A DNA stretch of 49,949 nt from a virus. Each line of letters opens with the position of its first letter. Position 1 is the stretch's first letter. A model generated the notes under the pieces. It was not told where the DNA came from. It searched no databases and was given only the letters and a program-made list of their open reading frames with translations. Positions 24,485 through 48,970 of this stretch are shown here, in pieces. The position numbers and the translations under genes are program-made. Location of the stretch: positions 1 to 49,949 of the IMG/VR virus record IMGVR_UViG_3300046782_000313; one strand, 5' to 3'.

Positions 24485-25248
24485 GCGAACCCCATTCTTG
24501 AACAGTCCATGTCCGGATGGATTATCTTCTCAGGCGCGTTCGCCCCGCCATTGCCCCCGAGCACGACATACGCCGCGGTGGCGCAGGCGATGGCCGCCGG
24601 CACGATCCAGCCGACACCACCGACAACCAGCGCCGCGTCGCGTATGGCTGCGAGCAGTTGCCGCACCGATAGCTCGCCGTGGGTCAGCGCGAGGTTGTGC
24701 GGCGGCATGTGCCCCTCGATCCACTCCTCGCCGATCGAGAGGTCGCAGACGACGACGACGGCGTAGCCGCGCGCCTTCATGTCGCCGGCGACATGCTCAA
24801 TGTACTCCGGCCTCGGATTGCGCGAGGCGTTGTCCCAATCCCGGCGCCGAACGGCAGGCCGCACGAGCACGAGCGGCGATTCGGTGTCGAACGGTGACGG
24901 CCCCATGTCCGGCAGATCCCACGCCGGCGCGGACACGGGCGGCATCTTGCTCGCCATCGCGTCGTAAACCGTGCCCTGCGAAAACGCCTCCGCGGAATAG
25001 TAGAGGAACACCGTGGGCGCGCTCGCCGGCGCCGATCGCCACCGCCCCGCCGGTTGCCGCCGGACATTCGCCGATTGCACCCGCAGGGCCGTCGGCGGCT
25101 CGACGAAGCGAAGCGGCAGGTCTTCGTAAAGCTCGGGCCAGGGGGTTTCGACGAACAGGTCATGCCGCGCCGCCGCGTCGCGGATCACCGGGCGCACGTA
25201 GATCGCATCGCCGAGGCCGTAGGGCGCGCGGATGACCAGCGGTGTCAC
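24376..25248 (-). CDS. GT9/heptosyltransferase-like glycosyltransferase
   Basis: A 290-residue protein with a GT-B plan: RAPYGLGDAIYVRPVIRDAA at the N-terminus (the Gly-rich LGD acceptor-side motif) and, in the C-terminal half, HGELSVRQLLAAIRDAALVV followed by GGVGWIVPAAIACATAAYVV, the sugar-nucleotide side of GT9-like enzymes. Three cysteines (CRCSDTHHDC) near the end may bind metal. It may transfer heptose-like sugars, but acceptor and donor are unknown. It overlaps the next glycosyltransferase by 4 nt. Confidence 0.75.
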   Translation of the reverse strand: MTPLVIRAPYGLGDAIYVRPVIRDAAARHDLFVETPWPELYEDLPLRFVEPPTALRVQSANVRRQPAGRWRSAPASAPTVFLYYSAEAFSQGTVYDAMASKMPPVSAPAWDLPDMGPSPFDTESPLVLVRPAVRRRDWDNASRNPRPEYIEHVAGDMKARGYAVVVVCDLSIGEEWIEGHMPPHNLALTHGELSVRQLLAAIRDAALVVGGVGWIVPAAIACATAAYVVLGGNGGANAPEKIIHPDMDCSRMGFAWPTTLCRCSDTHHDCPKEIPDLAQQWSTWRSAMAL

Positions 25249-26069
25249 GCCGCCGCGGCCTCGGTGCCCAGCGACAGCAGCGCCTGCATGCGGGCGAGAC
25301 GGTCCCGCTCGCCGTGGAAAGAGCGGACGACCGGCTGCGCTGCCTCCATATGGTCCTCCACCCAGTTGTAGCGGTTCGGCAGGATCGTCAGCAGCGACCG
25401 CCAGCGCCGATCCTTCATCAGTTCAATCAGCGCGCCCTGATCTTCCCAGGCCATGTGCACGGGCATCGCGTCCCACGCCTTGACGAAGGCACGGACCTCC
25501 GGGGCGGCGTTGAACCAGACGACGCCCGTGTTCAGGTGGGCGTGCACCGCCGGGCTGTCCCAGCACTCGCAGATGCCCACGCCCCAGCGGCACACCGAGA
25601 GCAGATCCACCGTTGCATCGACGATGATGCTGTCGGCATCGAGCCACAGCACCTGCTCGAAACCCCGGTCGAGCGCCTGGCCGATGACGTCCACCTTGCG
25701 CCAGTGCGGCGGACGCGCCGCCTTGCGTGGCCGGCCTTCGCGGTGCGCGATGAATTCGATGCCCCAGGCGGCGCAGTAGCGCGCGTGGAGGTCCGCCGTC
25801 AGGTCGAGCATCCGCACGAAGTCCATGCCGCTGGCGAGCTGCACGAGCGCGCGGCGGCCTGGCCGCTTCCGCTTCGGCGGCGGACTGCCATCAGCCGGCG
25901 GATCGGCCTTGACCCTGATCCGGCTGCCGTCGCCGACCGCTGGTATCGCCAGGCCGGCGCGGCGCAATTCGCGCGCCCGTGATTCACGCGCCTCGAATTC
26001 GGTGCCGGGCGACACCGACCCTTCCTCGTCGCCGTTGATCCAGGGCTTTAGTGCTACCATCCTCACCAT
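25245..26069 (-). CDS. DxD glycosyltransferase with N-terminal phage-type domain
   Basis: A 274-residue protein. Residues 1-~45 form a small domain (MVRMVALKPW, then GTEFEARESRARELRRAGLA) known in stand-alone phage proteins; a basic linker follows. From ~80 it is GT-A-like: FVRMLDLTADLHARYCAAWG, EQVLWLDADSIIVDATVDLL with the DxD metal site, HAHLNTGVVWFNA and AWEDQGAL. I start at ATG 26069, with GGAG nine bases upstream. Its first ten codons are a recoded copy of a start left behind upstream of the inserted GIY-YIG gene. Probably modifies a virion or host glycan. Confidence 0.8.
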   Translation of the reverse strand: MVRMVALKPWINGDEEGSVSPGTEFEARESRARELRRAGLAIPAVGDGSRIRVKADPPADGSPPPKRKRPGRRALVQLASGMDFVRMLDLTADLHARYCAAWGIEFIAHREGRPRKAARPPHWRKVDVIGQALDRGFEQVLWLDADSIIVDATVDLLSVCRWGVGICECWDSPAVHAHLNTGVVWFNAAPEVRAFVKAWDAMPVHMAWEDQGALIELMKDRRWRSLLTILPNRYNWVEDHMEAAQPVVRSFHGERDRLARMQALLSLGTEAAAA

Positions 26070-26086
26070 TCCCGGCGGCTCCAATT

Positions 26087-26857
26087 TCAGAACAAATCGC
26101 GCTGCTTAAAATCACGCACGATCCCTCCACGCCCTCCCAGCCTTCCCATTCTCGCCGCGCGCTCGTGCCCAGCACGACGAGCGTTATCGAACCCAGGAAC
26201 CTGTCGGAGCGCCTTCAATCGCGCTGCTTGGGCTGCGCGCGCTTCGGGTGTTCTCGGGTATTTTCCCATAGCCTGTCTCTGTTCGGCGGTCGCTTCTGCG
26301 AGGAACCTGCGCCTTCCCTCCCACGATTTGGTTGTCCGCTTTTTTCTTTCTTCCGGCGACATACCGTCCCACATCTTTTTTGATGCAACAACTTGCTTGG
26401 CCTTCACGTCGGGACGAGCCATGGCTTTCTTGAGTGCCACTGACCTTTTAGTCCGACTCTCTAAGGTCAATGTTACGCCGTAAGCGCCGCCTCCGCCTTT
26501 GCTTTTGTTGTAACCTTGAGGCCAATAAGTTTGGAGTTCAGCGATAAGCAGTTTTTCAAAGTCCCACGCATCGTTGCGCGTTCGGCAGCAAAGAATATGG
26601 GCATCTGACCAATTGAATGTACCGATTCCGTGCTCGCGGATGGCGTTTGCTATTTCTTGCTTGATGCGAGGAGATCCATCGCGCCAATCATTGAACGCCG
26701 CGAAAATATGTGAAGAGAAGCGTTTCCCGGCGCTGCCTTCGAACATGCCGACGTAGCTCATGCCGGTCACGGAGCAGGTCAACACATAAACACCGAATTT
26801 CCATACGGTGGTGGCTTGCGCGAGCGTGGTCGGGTATGCATGTGGTCCGGTAGGCAT
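26087..26857 (-). CDS. GIY-YIG homing endonuclease
   Basis: A 256-residue protein. Residues ~22-100 carry the GIY-YIG nuclease (FGVYVLTCSVTGMSYVGMFE; RFSSHIFAAFNDWRDGS; AWDFEKLLIAELQTYWPQGY with the catalytic Glu-like position, then NKSKGGGG). The C-terminal half is basic with nuclease-associated modular DNA-binding repeats (KKMWDGMSPEERKKRTTKSW and RTPEARAAQAARLKALR). It would cut the uninserted glycosyltransferase locus. It has its own hairpin leader, lower GC than its neighbours, and is flanked by two copies of MxRMVALKPW, marking the insertion point. Confidence 0.88.
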   Translation of the reverse strand: MPTGPHAYPTTLAQATTVWKFGVYVLTCSVTGMSYVGMFEGSAGKRFSSHIFAAFNDWRDGSPRIKQEIANAIREHGIGTFNWSDAHILCCRTRNDAWDFEKLLIAELQTYWPQGYNKSKGGGGAYGVTLTLESRTKRSVALKKAMARPDVKAKQVVASKKMWDGMSPEERKKRTTKSWEGRRRFLAEATAEQRQAMGKYPRTPEARAAQAARLKALRQVPGFDNARRAGHERAARMGRLGGRGGIVRDFKQRDLF

Positions 26858-26887
26858 CGGCGATCCTCCAATGATCGGCGGTTCTCA

Positions 26888-26923
26888 GAGGCCCGGCCAA
26901 GATGCCAATCCTGGACGGGCCTC
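26888..26923 (-). promoter_or_regulatory. 5' hairpin leader of the GIY-YIG gene
   Basis: On the minus strand GAGGCCCG (26923-26916) pairs perfectly with CGGGCCTC (26895-26888), loop 20 nt. It is followed by TGAGAACC and GGAGGATCG before the ATG at 26857. Read on the plus strand the stem is followed by GTCTTTTT, so it could also end plus-strand transcripts, but no plus-strand gene lies here. The layout matches the HNH leader at 2819-2853. Confidence 0.55.
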
Positions 26924-26958
26924 GTCTTTTTACATCGCTCCGTTGGCAGTCGGCGACT

Positions 26959-26988
26959 CCACGGCTTGAGGGCGACCATGCGGATCAT
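26959..26988 (-). pseudogene. Displaced original start of the glycosyltransferase gene
   Basis: Thirty bases encode MIRMVALKPW and then run out of similarity into the endonuclease leader. The intact gene at 26069 begins MVRMVALKPW with five synonymous codon changes (for example GTC to GTA, CCG to CCC). The ATG overlaps the upstream stop as AAATGA, the coupled start expected before insertion. It is best read as the severed 5' end left by the endonuclease insertion. Confidence 0.7.
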
Positions 26989-27290
26989 TTCACCATCCCC
27001 GCTGCGGCCTTGTCTAAGATGTCGCGGTCCTTCTCTTCACGGTTCAGCAGCCGCTCGACCACCGAAATCGGCACCTGCTGTAAGCAGGACGTGATGATCG
27101 GGCCGAGGTTTCGGTCGCGACGATCCGCTTGCACGTTCAGGAACCACAACATGCCAACCACGTAGATCGAATTCAGCAACACCAGAACCATGAACTGCGC
27201 GGGCAGGGTGTCGATCAGCTTCGCCGCCGTGCGGCTCGCCGCGCCGACCGCGCCGGTGCCATGGCCATTCGGGGCCGGCGGATCAGCCAT
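26985..27290 (-). CDS. Membrane protein, possible holin/antiholin
   Basis: A 101-residue protein: Pro/Gly-rich start, one strong hydrophobic helix (FMVLVLLNSIYVVGMLWFL) near residues 35-55, then a charged helical tail (VERLLNREEKDRDILDKAAA). It starts inside the end of a 35-residue membrane gene (8-nt overlap) that itself overlaps a putative peptidoglycan hydrolase. A one-span protein beside an endolysin-like gene is compatible with a holin or lysis regulator; sequence alone does not settle it. Confidence 0.6.
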   Translation of the reverse strand: MADPPAPNGHGTGAVGAASRTAAKLIDTLPAQFMVLVLLNSIYVVGMLWFLNVQADRRDRNLGPIITSCLQQVPISVVERLLNREEKDRDILDKAAAGMVK

Positions 27291-27390
27291 CACGCCGCGC
27301 GAGATCGGCGATGCACTCGGTGATGAAAGCCGCCAGCACCGACAGCGCCAGCATGAACAGGACCCCCAGCCCGAGCAGCAGCAGGGTCAC
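27283..27390 (-). CDS. Very small membrane protein overlapping the hydrolase gene
   Basis: A 35-residue protein starting at GTG 27390, whose GTGA overlaps the upstream TGA. It is almost one hydrophobic helix (TLLLLGLGVLFMLALSVLAA) followed by FITECIADLARRDG. It overlaps the next start by 8 nt. Tight coupling on both sides supports expression; a pinholin or lysis accessory role is a guess from size and context. Confidence 0.5.
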   Translation of the reverse strand: MTLLLLGLGVLFMLALSVLAAFITECIADLARRDG

Positions 27391-27773
27391 GCCGCCGCCG
27401 TCTGTGTCGCTGTTTCCACGATATGGAACCGGTCGGCGTCGTCACAGGCGAGACCCTCGCCGCCCTTGAAGCGGATCAACCGCTCGTGCACCGGCTGACC
27501 CACCCAAGCGTCGCAGACCAGCAGGCCATCATCCCGCTGCTCCAACAGGATCGCGACATGCGAACTGCCGTCCTCGGCGTTGGCGTAAAGCCCGTCCTCA
27601 TCGAAGGTGCCGATGACGGTGCCGCGCGGATAGCCCGACCCCTTCGCCGGCTGGCCGCGGCGCAGCGTCGAGGAGTGCGTCACGTTCGCCACGATTTGGC
27701 AGTGTCGAAGGCAATGCCCGGTATCGAGCACCTCGCCCAAGTGGGCAAGCGGATCAGCGGCTACGAATGACAT
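27387..27773 (-). CDS. BPSL0067-like putative peptidoglycan amidase (endolysin)
   Basis: A 128-residue protein with TGHCLRHCQIVANVTHSSTL near the N-terminus (candidate catalytic Cys), YPRGTVIGTFDEDGLYANAE, the GSSHVAILLEQ box (candidate His) and WVGQPVHERLIRFKGG. This matches the BPSL0067 family, thought to be related to CHAP/NlpC-type cysteine hydrolases. It would cut cell wall during lysis. I start at ATG 27773 (AGGGAG seven bases upstream) rather than GTG 27779. Two small membrane genes follow, forming a likely lysis set. Confidence 0.75.
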   Translation of the reverse strand: MSFVAADPLAHLGEVLDTGHCLRHCQIVANVTHSSTLRRGQPAKGSGYPRGTVIGTFDEDGLYANAEDGSSHVAILLEQRDDGLLVCDAWVGQPVHERLIRFKGGEGLACDDADRFHIVETATQTAAA

Positions 27774-27784
27774 TTCCACTCTCC

Positions 27785-28390
27785 CTAAGACGACACGATG
27801 TGCGCGGTGATGTAGCTCGACGCCATGATGCCGGGCACGTCGCCTGCCGCGATCAGCGCCCCGGCGCGCACGATGTGGCCGTCTTGCAGTAAGCCCTGGT
27901 AGAAGGTGCGCCCGATCGACTGCAAGCCCGGCAATAACTGCACCTGCCCGCGCGTCAGCAGAGTCCCCGCTTTGTCAATTTGGACGCCGATTTGCGCTCC
28001 CGACGCGGGCGGCGCTTCGAACTCGCACCACAGGTCGATCGCCACCATGGCATTGCCGACGACCGCAAAGCCGCCATCGGCATCCGCGAACAGATCGGTG
28101 TTGCCGTAGGCATCCGCGGGACCGAGCGTCAGAACGGCCCATTCGCCGGTTCCGGTCAGGTCGGCAGCGGCGAGGTTCGCATACCAAAAGCAGGTTCCCG
28201 GCGCGGCCGGTGGAGCAGGGCCGCCTTCAAGAGTTTGGCCATCCGGCACGTAGGCCAGCGAGGTCGCGAACGTGTTCGACCGGTTGTCCCATGTGCGCGT
28301 GCGATACAGCCAGCCCCCCGCCACGCTCAGGCGGTCGAGCGTGCCGGCGCTGTCCTCGGCAAGCGTTTCAAACGTGTGCAGTTCCGGCAT
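27785..28390 (-). CDS. Hypothetical protein next to major capsid gene
   Basis: A 201-residue protein starting MPELHTFETLAEDSAGTLDR, beta-rich (GGWLYRTRTWDNRSN; DGGFAVVGNAMVAIDLWCEF) with a C-terminal DGHIVRAGALIAAGDVPGIM stretch. GAGGAG precedes the ATG at 28390. No family recognised. Directly downstream of the capsid gene after a strong hairpin; possible roles are capsid decoration or fibre, by position only. Confidence 0.55.
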   Translation of the reverse strand: MPELHTFETLAEDSAGTLDRLSVAGGWLYRTRTWDNRSNTFATSLAYVPDGQTLEGGPAPPAAPGTCFWYANLAAADLTGTGEWAVLTLGPADAYGNTDLFADADGGFAVVGNAMVAIDLWCEFEAPPASGAQIGVQIDKAGTLLTRGQVQLLPGLQSIGRTFYQGLLQDGHIVRAGALIAAGDVPGIMASSYITAHIVSS

Positions 28391-28411
28391 TGTTTGTTCT
28401 CCTCGCGCCAT

Positions 28412-28453
28412 CCGCGCTGGCCCACGCAGGGGAGGTCTGCTGAACCAGCGCGG
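28412..28453 (-). promoter_or_regulatory. Hairpin between capsid gene and downstream genes
   Basis: CCGCGCTGG and CCAGCGCGG form a perfect 9-bp inverted repeat (28412-28420 with 28445-28453, loop 24 nt) in the 88-nt gap after the capsid stop. No T run follows on the transcribed strand. It may slow polymerase or protect capsid mRNA, so that capsid is made in excess over downstream products. Confidence 0.4.
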
Positions 28454-28478
28454 GGCATCACCCGCGACGCCGCGCGAG

Positions 28479-29678
28479 TTAGGTCAGCGTGCCGTAAATG
28501 AAGGCAGCCGGGCGATACACGGCGAAAGCCAGCCGTTCCTCGGCGCGGATCGTGATCATGTTGCGCACAAAATCGTCGGCATTCTCGGTGGAGATAAGCA
28601 CTTCCATCGACATGCGGTCGAAGATTTGCGCGCCATACCTGAACGAGCCGGTCAGGAACTTGGTGACCTGCATCGAGAACGAGGTCACGACCGGCAGGCC
28701 CCAGAGCGTTCTTGACAACTGGCTTTGCGGATCGCCGACGATGTAGCGCTGTTGCGCATCTTTCGTTAGTTCGATCTTCGCCCAGTCGGTCGGATGCAAC
28801 ACAAATCCGGTCGCGGGGTAGAGCGCGAGCGATGCTTGCAGTTGGGCCAGGCGCAGGGTGTCGATATTCGTCGGCGAAGTCGGCGTGAACGCGGCGGAAT
28901 AAGCGGTTGCCTGCGGGATGATGCCAAACAAGTTTAGACCAGTGCCATCGCCGTAAAGGAATTGCTGCTCCTCGACATACGCCAACCCGTAGCGCAACCG
29001 TCCGTCAATGGTAGACATGAGTTGCGGCACGTCATCGAGTATCTGTCGCGACGCCCGTTGCCAGTGCGCGAGCGTCCGCACCGGCGACGATTTCAGATCG
29101 AACGTGAGCGGCGGTGCCTGCGGCTTGACCGCGCCTTCCGAGACAAACGCAGCGGCGATGGTCAGCGGATTGTCGGTCTCGACCGGATATTCGATCGCAT
29201 TCGATGTCGTCGATCCCGGCATCAGCAGATCGCGGATACCCAAGGGACGCAGCGGCGGTGTCACCATCGGTTGCCGGTCCGCGATGACCAGCGACGATGT
29301 CGGCGATACCCCGGTGCCCCATAGCGCTGTGCCGCTCAGGATGTCTTTGTATTCGGCCTTGACGCGCGCCTGGCCGTTCTTGCTCGCGAGGAGCGCCTTG
29401 ACTTCGTCGTTCTCGACGACGAGCTGGCCGAGCGTCGATTGCGGCTCGCCGGCTGGCCCACGCGGACGCGCGAGCTTCTGCTCGACTTCGCCGACGCGGC
29501 CCGCGAGTTCGTTCATTGTCAGCAGCGCCTTGTCGGACGCGGCCTTCGTCTCCGTCGTCATGGCGCCGAGGTTCTTGATCTCGGTCTGCGCCTTCTCCGC
29601 GAACGTCTTTACGTCGTCGGTCGCCTTCTTGAGATCGACGGCGAGTTGTTTCAGGTCGTCGGTGTCATCCAACGGCAT
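28479..29678 (-). CDS. HK97-family major capsid protein
   Basis: A 399-residue protein. Residues ~1-100 form a coiled-coil delta/scaffold-like part (LKQLAVDLKKATDDVKTFAE), then the HK97 fold starts: ALWGTGVSPTSSLVIADRQP, RPLGIRDLLMPGSTTSNAIE, WQRASRQILDDVPQLMSTID, TGFVLHPTDWAKIELTKDAQ, and RTLWGLPVVTSFSMQVTKFL. It assembles the icosahedral head; the N-terminal part is presumably removed by the upstream protease. GGAGG lies just before the ATG. Order terminase-portal-protease-capsid is standard. Confidence 0.95.
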   Translation of the reverse strand: MPLDDTDDLKQLAVDLKKATDDVKTFAEKAQTEIKNLGAMTTETKAASDKALLTMNELAGRVGEVEQKLARPRGPAGEPQSTLGQLVVENDEVKALLASKNGQARVKAEYKDILSGTALWGTGVSPTSSLVIADRQPMVTPPLRPLGIRDLLMPGSTTSNAIEYPVETDNPLTIAAAFVSEGAVKPQAPPLTFDLKSSPVRTLAHWQRASRQILDDVPQLMSTIDGRLRYGLAYVEEQQFLYGDGTGLNLFGIIPQATAYSAAFTPTSPTNIDTLRLAQLQASLALYPATGFVLHPTDWAKIELTKDAQQRYIVGDPQSQLSRTLWGLPVVTSFSMQVTKFLTGSFRYGAQIFDRMSMEVLISTENADDFVRNMITIRAEERLAFAVYRPAAFIYGTLT

Positions 29679-48746: not shown

Positions 48747-48970
48747 GCATCGCCAAAGCCGACATTGCCGCGAGCGGCCCCATAGACGGGATGGGCGCGC
48801 CCGATTATCGCGGCTCATACGTGCTGATCAGTATTCAAGCGGATAACGGGGCCACGCACAAATTCCGCGTTTCCGAGGGCGGTGCCGACCAGTTGCGAGC
48901 GGAGCTTGTTGTGCTGCTGCGGCTCATGGCCGGCAGACAGCCGCTCGATCTTCGGACCGAATCATGCTAA
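48743..48970 (+). CDS. Hypothetical protein
   Basis: A 75-residue protein, beta-rich in the middle (SYVLISIQADNGATHKFRVS) with a C-terminal helix (ADQLRAELVVLLRLMAGRQP). Overlaps both neighbours by a few bases. No function recognised; part of the small-gene run leading to excisionase and integrase. Confidence 0.55.
   Translation: MSIAKADIAASGPIDGMGAPDYRGSYVLISIQADNGATHKFRVSEGGADQLRAELVVLLRLMAGRQPLDLRTESC

Follow-up and report, generated by a model that had tools for sequence, protein, structure and literature searches.

A free-standing GIY-YIG endonuclease gene in a viral genome lies between the stranded native start of a glycosyltransferase-like gene and a second, recoded start from which that gene is now read. 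We interpret this arrangement, with a probability of roughly 0.78, as a self-contained homing element in which the endonuclease gene is followed by a resistant version of codons 1-10 of its target. The native state of the target survives in a relative that lacks the insertion, the restored end has a foreign composition, and equivalent arrangements recur at the starts and ends of unrelated genes.

Organization of the insertion site

The window, a stretch of 49,949 nucleotides (IMG/VR record IMGVR_UViG_3300046782_000313), carries on its minus strand, in this order, a 102-aa gene, a stranded gene start, a leader, an endonuclease gene and a restored start that opens the target gene. The 102-aa gene (27293-26985), which would form the left homology arm of the element, has its stop overlapped through ATGA by the stranded native codons 1-10 of the target, ATGATCCGCATGGTCGCCCTCAAGCCGTGG (MIRMVALKPW, 26988-26959). 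The restored codons 1-10, ATGGTGAGGATGGTAGCACTAAAGCCCTGG (MVRMVALKPW, 26069-26040), begin the target reading frame (25245-26069, 274 aa), which contains a WLDADS motif and has weak Pfam matches to Nucleotid_trans/Glyco_transf_34. The two peptides are identical at 9 of 10 residues, with I2V as the sole change, and their DNA matches at 22 of 30 nucleotides. R, V, A, L and P are respelled in the restored copy, that is, five of the six shared residues that have synonymous choices, and the K codon is unchanged. Both the stranded start, still coupled to the preceding stop, and the respelled restart had been described in a first-pass annotation of this DNA, and its observation of a recoded duplicate start at 26040-26988 is correct. 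Its interpretation, that the insertion replaced the 5' end of a target gene that nonetheless survives, is supported by the comparison with a relative without the insertion, by recoded ends beside other GIY-YIG genes and by the insertion in phage YungJamal, all described below.

Comparison with the uninterrupted gene of a relative (...CCCTGG/ATCAAC...) places the split after codon 10 and delimits an inserted element of 919 bp (26040-26958, minus strand). The element comprises a leader of about 100 nt, the endonuclease gene (26087-26857, minus strand, 256 aa), a gap of 17 nt between the endonuclease stop and the restored start, and the restored ten codons.

The encoded protein is a GIY-YIG homing endonuclease, as judged from a catalytic domain with the residues Y, Y, R, H, E and N. 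It matches the homing endonuclease family phrog_314 at 2e-14, while the Pfam GIY-YIG model alone gives 13.3 bits, which is below its cut-off. When the protein is aligned with 36 relatives, Y35, H50, E101 and N117 of the catalytic site show no variation and Y24 and R46 hardly any, and a profile built from the relatives' alignment matches the I-TevI catalytic domain at 7e-14. An AlphaFold2 model (pLDDT 81) returned I-TevI as its three best Foldseek matches, with a TM score of 0.75 by target length. The leader contains a stable hairpin, GAGGCCCG...CGGGCCTC (26888-26923, minus strand), followed by a GGAGG ribosome site (26865-26869) ahead of the endonuclease gene. RNA folding of 26857-26923 and of the corresponding leader of a second endonuclease-bearing relative (L012:2735-2860) gave the same order of elements, a strong hairpin and then a ribosome site inside a potential small hairpin. 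The two leaders thus resemble those of T4 endonuclease genes, for which hairpins that regulate expression and sequestration of the ribosome site have been described (PMC2988022).

Recurrence at other phage genes

Recoded ends beside other GIY-YIG genes, which the first-pass annotation had proposed looking for, do occur. We surveyed 160 GIY-YIG locus fetches and a few controls, which yielded 128 distinct loci with enough flank, and compared, without gaps, the translations of two flanks at each locus, 200 nt ahead of the endonuclease gene and 120 nt behind it. The window scored 53, and the best of 5,995 mispaired control pairs scored 41. Seven of the 128 loci exceeded this control maximum; six of them, including the window, are protein-coding, a fraction that comes from a ranked sample and is not an estimate of abundance. 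The seventh match (L187) consists of two tRNA genes that flank an endonuclease gene and is not an end replacement. That GIY-YIG gene sits within a 14-tRNA array on a large virus contig (L187:387-6366), between tRNA-Ser and an 89-nt tRNA called as Trp. Further matches at L034, L065, L073 and L165 proved to be repeats within or around nuclease genes, and those at L079/L171 and L122 were GC-rich matches in alternative frames that we took as noise. L165:2997-3780 is a GIY-YIG gene that has on both sides, on the opposite strand, long tandem repeats of a motif containing Cys and His (KDTEQFIKEAIGKYGDKW...CxxC).

Four of the six protein-coding cases lie at gene starts and two at gene ends. Besides the window, the starts are those of a cytosine-5 methylase gene (L168, score 47), where MKILSLFDGIS has been left behind and a new methylase start, with 7 of 10 codons changed, immediately follows the endonuclease stop, of a HAD or polynucleotide-kinase-like gene (L169, score 47) and of a PTH2 gene (L139, score 49). 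The last is a weaker case, with a stranded fragment that has no clear ATG and with 5 of 7 shared codons the same. The ends belong to an RNA-ligase-like gene (L112/L078; 40-42 shared residues, 12 of them in the same codons) and to a helicase gene (L167; 21 shared residues, 6 same codons). At L168 and L169 the 3' end of the endonuclease gene and the restored start overlap, as do the restored stop and the beginning of that gene at L112; translational coupling has therefore been rebuilt at these loci. Close relatives without the insertion were sought for the other survey loci as well, and the matches listed contained only distant homologues.

The cleanest case of a recoded gene end is found in the Cluster O mycobacteriophage YungJamal. 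Imperfect repeats whose differences are mostly synonymous were reported on both sides of its gene 60, and no homing mechanism was proposed (PMC4351075). Compared with Dylan and Firecracker, the neighbouring tail gene 59 of YungJamal differs at 16 of 1716 nt (0.9%), except for its last 28 nt, which hold 13 differences; the encoded end, GTPLRRWP, is kept although six of seven codons with synonymous alternatives are changed, and the native end of gene 59 is intact beyond the insert. Since the rest of the gene is only 0.9% diverged, this comparison demonstrates that the recoding arrived at the same time as the insertion rather than through slow drift. Gene 60 itself is weakly HNH-like; proteins related to its C-terminal half carry the annotation HNH endonuclease. 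YungJamal therefore resembles the window in having an endonuclease-like gene at the end of a phage gene, flanked by one synonymously recoded and one native copy of that end, but differs in that the 3' end is affected and the HNH-like gene lies on the opposite strand.

In the same group of phages, an HNH insertion at the start of the tape measure gene has been described for Corndog and Firecracker, with no splicing detected (PMC4351075). We found the HNH gene exactly at the tape measure start in Firecracker (L200:812-1560) and in YungJamal (L198:1507-2110). As in the window, the endonuclease gene thus sits exactly at a translation start, but here no canonical start has been restored, the native ATG CCG reading ACG GCA after the insert. 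End replacement is therefore not the sole outcome of such insertions.

Native state and source of the restored start

Target orthologues with 74-76% amino-acid identity were found in three relatives (L007, L012 and L013). The contigs L007 and L008, which belong to a single relative, are syntenic with the window and lack the insert: the upstream gene is 90% identical at the amino-acid level, the ATGA overlap is kept, and the target runs uninterrupted from ATGATCCGCATGGTTGCGCTCGTGCCCTGG into ATC AAC. This intact start, which occupies the same syntenic position as the stranded start at 26988-26959, matches the stranded copy at 25 of 30 nt and the restored copy at 21 of 30. Codon 10 therefore immediately precedes the insertion point, and it is the stranded copy that represents the native start. 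The first-pass annotation had expected insert-free relatives to carry the stranded spelling and not the recoded one. This expectation held for L007/L008 but not for L013, a more distant insert-free relative with another upstream gene, whose natural MVR start is identical to the restored copy at 26 of 30 nt. The restored tract may therefore be a foreign allele that was carried in, rather than native codons respelled under selection. The window and its nearest insert-free relative share only about 70-85% identity; searches for relatives in bacterial genomes and for the target gene in isolated phages found none. A further target orthologue (L021:1, IMGVR_UViG_3300047160_001252) is truncated: the contig edge coincides with its residue 27.

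The main inconsistency is L012, in which a 47%-identical endonuclease gene directly adjoins the capsid gene on its upstream side and the target on its downstream side. Its target start is un-recoded (28 of 30 nt identical to the stranded copy of the window), and upstream of its endonuclease gene there is no stranded copy. The L012 enzyme must have another specificity or be inactive, or its cut site must lie elsewhere or beyond these ten codons.

Two observations concern other parts of these genomes. Seven bases of the window (24608-24614) are absent from the otherwise identical contig L014 (IMGVR_UViG_3300047314_000026), which gives a frameshift in the phrog_6804 gene and may stem from misassembly or from genuine variation. 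In addition, 48753-48933 of the window is 72% identical to a stretch of L007/L008 that adjoins the homologue of window 27384-27773, which suggests that a gene has moved between both genomes.

The L012 and L013 sequences bring up a reading that departs from ours only by denying the resistance function. The endonuclease gene could have lain, in another phage, upstream of a diverged, MVR-type copy of the target, as L012 illustrates for an endonuclease gene directly before an un-recoded target and L013 for the MVR-type start itself, and one-sided illegitimate repair, which has been described for phage intron homing (PMC2988022), could then have joined it into the present genome and left both starts by accident. 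We consider this unlikely, given that the arrangement is also seen at unrelated targets, at gene starts as well as gene ends, and that the foreign tract of YungJamal, which spans only about 28 nt where the rest of the gene is 0.9% diverged, is too short and too precisely placed for an accident.

The composition of the restored codons points to their arrival with the endonuclease gene. When codon usage is taken from 15 structural genes in the window, none of the 3,398 six-codon stretches in those genes is as improbable as the six synonymous choices of the restored copy. The ln likelihood of the restored copy is -10.4 under the usage of the endonuclease gene vs -14.7 under structural-gene usage, and the order is reversed for the stranded copy (-7.9 vs -4.7). 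At the three loci where composition is informative, the GC3 of the restored end is close to that of the endonuclease gene and the GC3 of the displaced end to that of the gene body. In the window the values are 0.57 (restored), 0.54 (endonuclease gene), 1.0 (stranded) and 0.87 (body); those for the restored end, endonuclease gene, displaced end and body are 0.51, 0.47, 0.76 and 0.70 in L112, and 0.24, 0.14, 0.39 and 0.41 in L167. The restored codons therefore look like part of the arriving element. Pooled over the window, L112, L167 and L168, 22 of 79 codons are the same, vs 31 expected by chance saturation. Synonymous identity is thus at or slightly below chance saturation, and selection for extra divergence is not convincingly supported; the L013 start favours a diverged homologue of the target as the source of the restored spelling.

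Long drift would also bring synonymous differences near saturation, and the two starts could accordingly be a plain tandem duplication around an endonuclease gene that inserted long ago. This is very improbable: a non-functional stranded copy should lose its frame and residues before both copies reach silent saturation, but 9 of 10 residues survive; the restored copy shares the composition of the endonuclease gene; and in YungJamal, where recoding coexists with 0.9% divergence over the rest of the gene, slow drift is refuted. GIY-YIG genes are common inside introns, and the insert falls cleanly between codons 10 and 11, yet a spliced group I or II intron, with the ribosome reading MIRMVALKPW joined to INGDE, is less probable still, for a second copy of the upstream exon would be needless, a complete and separate reading frame runs from the restored start, and the search of 25000-28500 returned no Rfam intron family up to the permissive threshold of E=1, in agreement with the first-pass view of an insertion at a translation start without splicing.

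A model for homing

Under the homing interpretation, the endonuclease would cut element-free relatives within the first codons of the glycosyltransferase gene, and the break would be repaired from an element-bearing genome. The upstream gene and the native start would together serve as one homology arm, and what remains of the target as the second. Repair would insert the endonuclease gene and the recoded start together; the native start would be left stranded upstream, where it is indeed observed, and the target would keep essentially the same protein from its new start, as its reading frame indicates. The new codons would no longer match the cut site, so that the element would protect its own genome. 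The recoded tract, which probably derives from a diverged homologue of the target, would arrive with the endonuclease gene and not afterwards, as composition suggests here and as the YungJamal comparison demonstrates for its own insert.

If this is true, important genes can be invaded without splicing. It may be that free-standing endonuclease genes enter coding sequence, with neither intron nor intein, by bringing a cut-proof replacement for the part that they break. Stranded and recoded gene ends flanking a nuclease gene would constitute a sequence signature with which cut sites and recent homing events could be mapped in phage genomes. The recurrence in other phages at gene starts and ends makes the arrangement more than a one-off curiosity, and YungJamal and Dylan form a ready experimental pair.

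Comparison with known systems

Among the phage systems to compare are the SegA-SegG genes of T4, which are likewise free-standing GIY-YIG genes between conserved phage genes. Their targets, unlike that of the window, are whole beside the insertion, and the T4 GIY-YIG loci that we examined (eight found, all but one scored) gave only background scores for flanking duplication.

The systems nearest to the window are two that replace gene ends, the WHO elements of yeasts and the mORFs of fungal mitochondria. In Torulaspora and Lachancea, WHO elements exchange hundreds of bases at the 3' end of FBA1, and the former end persists as a fragment (Coughlan et al. 2020, PMC7282813). As in the window, the endonuclease gene lies between a full-length target with a replaced end and a displaced native fragment, and no splicing is involved. 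Cleavage and resistance have been shown experimentally for WHO elements (PMC7282813), in which the replaced end is resistant and the displaced fragment is a homology arm; both roles are inferred for the window. The window nevertheless falls outside the WHO family proper, which is eukaryotic and is defined by HO/VDE-type (intein-derived) endonucleases fused to zinc fingers and by the FBA1 3' end; here a phage GIY-YIG enzyme is associated with ten codons at the 5' end of a glycosyltransferase-like gene.

A similar replacement has been described for the mORFs of fungal mitochondria (Allomyces atp6; Glomus atp6, atp9, cox2 and nad3), where a gene end is exchanged for a foreign, silently diverged version (PMC3630166). 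The native end is left beyond the endonuclease gene, which is of the GIY-YIG type in the atp9 case, and all described cases are C-terminal (PMC3630166). The window shares the silently diverged replacement and the native end beyond the endonuclease gene, but differs from the mORFs in the end affected and in lying outside mitochondria. Judged by its sequence, the window has two features of the mechanism class to which WHO elements and mORFs belong: a target end replaced by a diverged version with nearly the same residues (9/10, with 5/6 codons changed), and a native end that now lies across the endonuclease gene from the target.

Our literature search, which covered open PubMed Central papers, found no earlier description of 5'-end replacement in phages. 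As far as that literature shows, the 5' end, the phage setting with a GIY-YIG enzyme and the recognition that the arrangement recurs appear to be new. We lean towards the broader view that phages carry widespread, previously unrecognised intron-free homing elements, in which an endonuclease gene travels with a recoded start or end of its target, and that the start-replacing form, which rebuilds a translation start, is a new one. A mechanism known from yeast and fungal mitochondria would thereby be found in phages as well, with another nuclease family and at the 5' end of genes.
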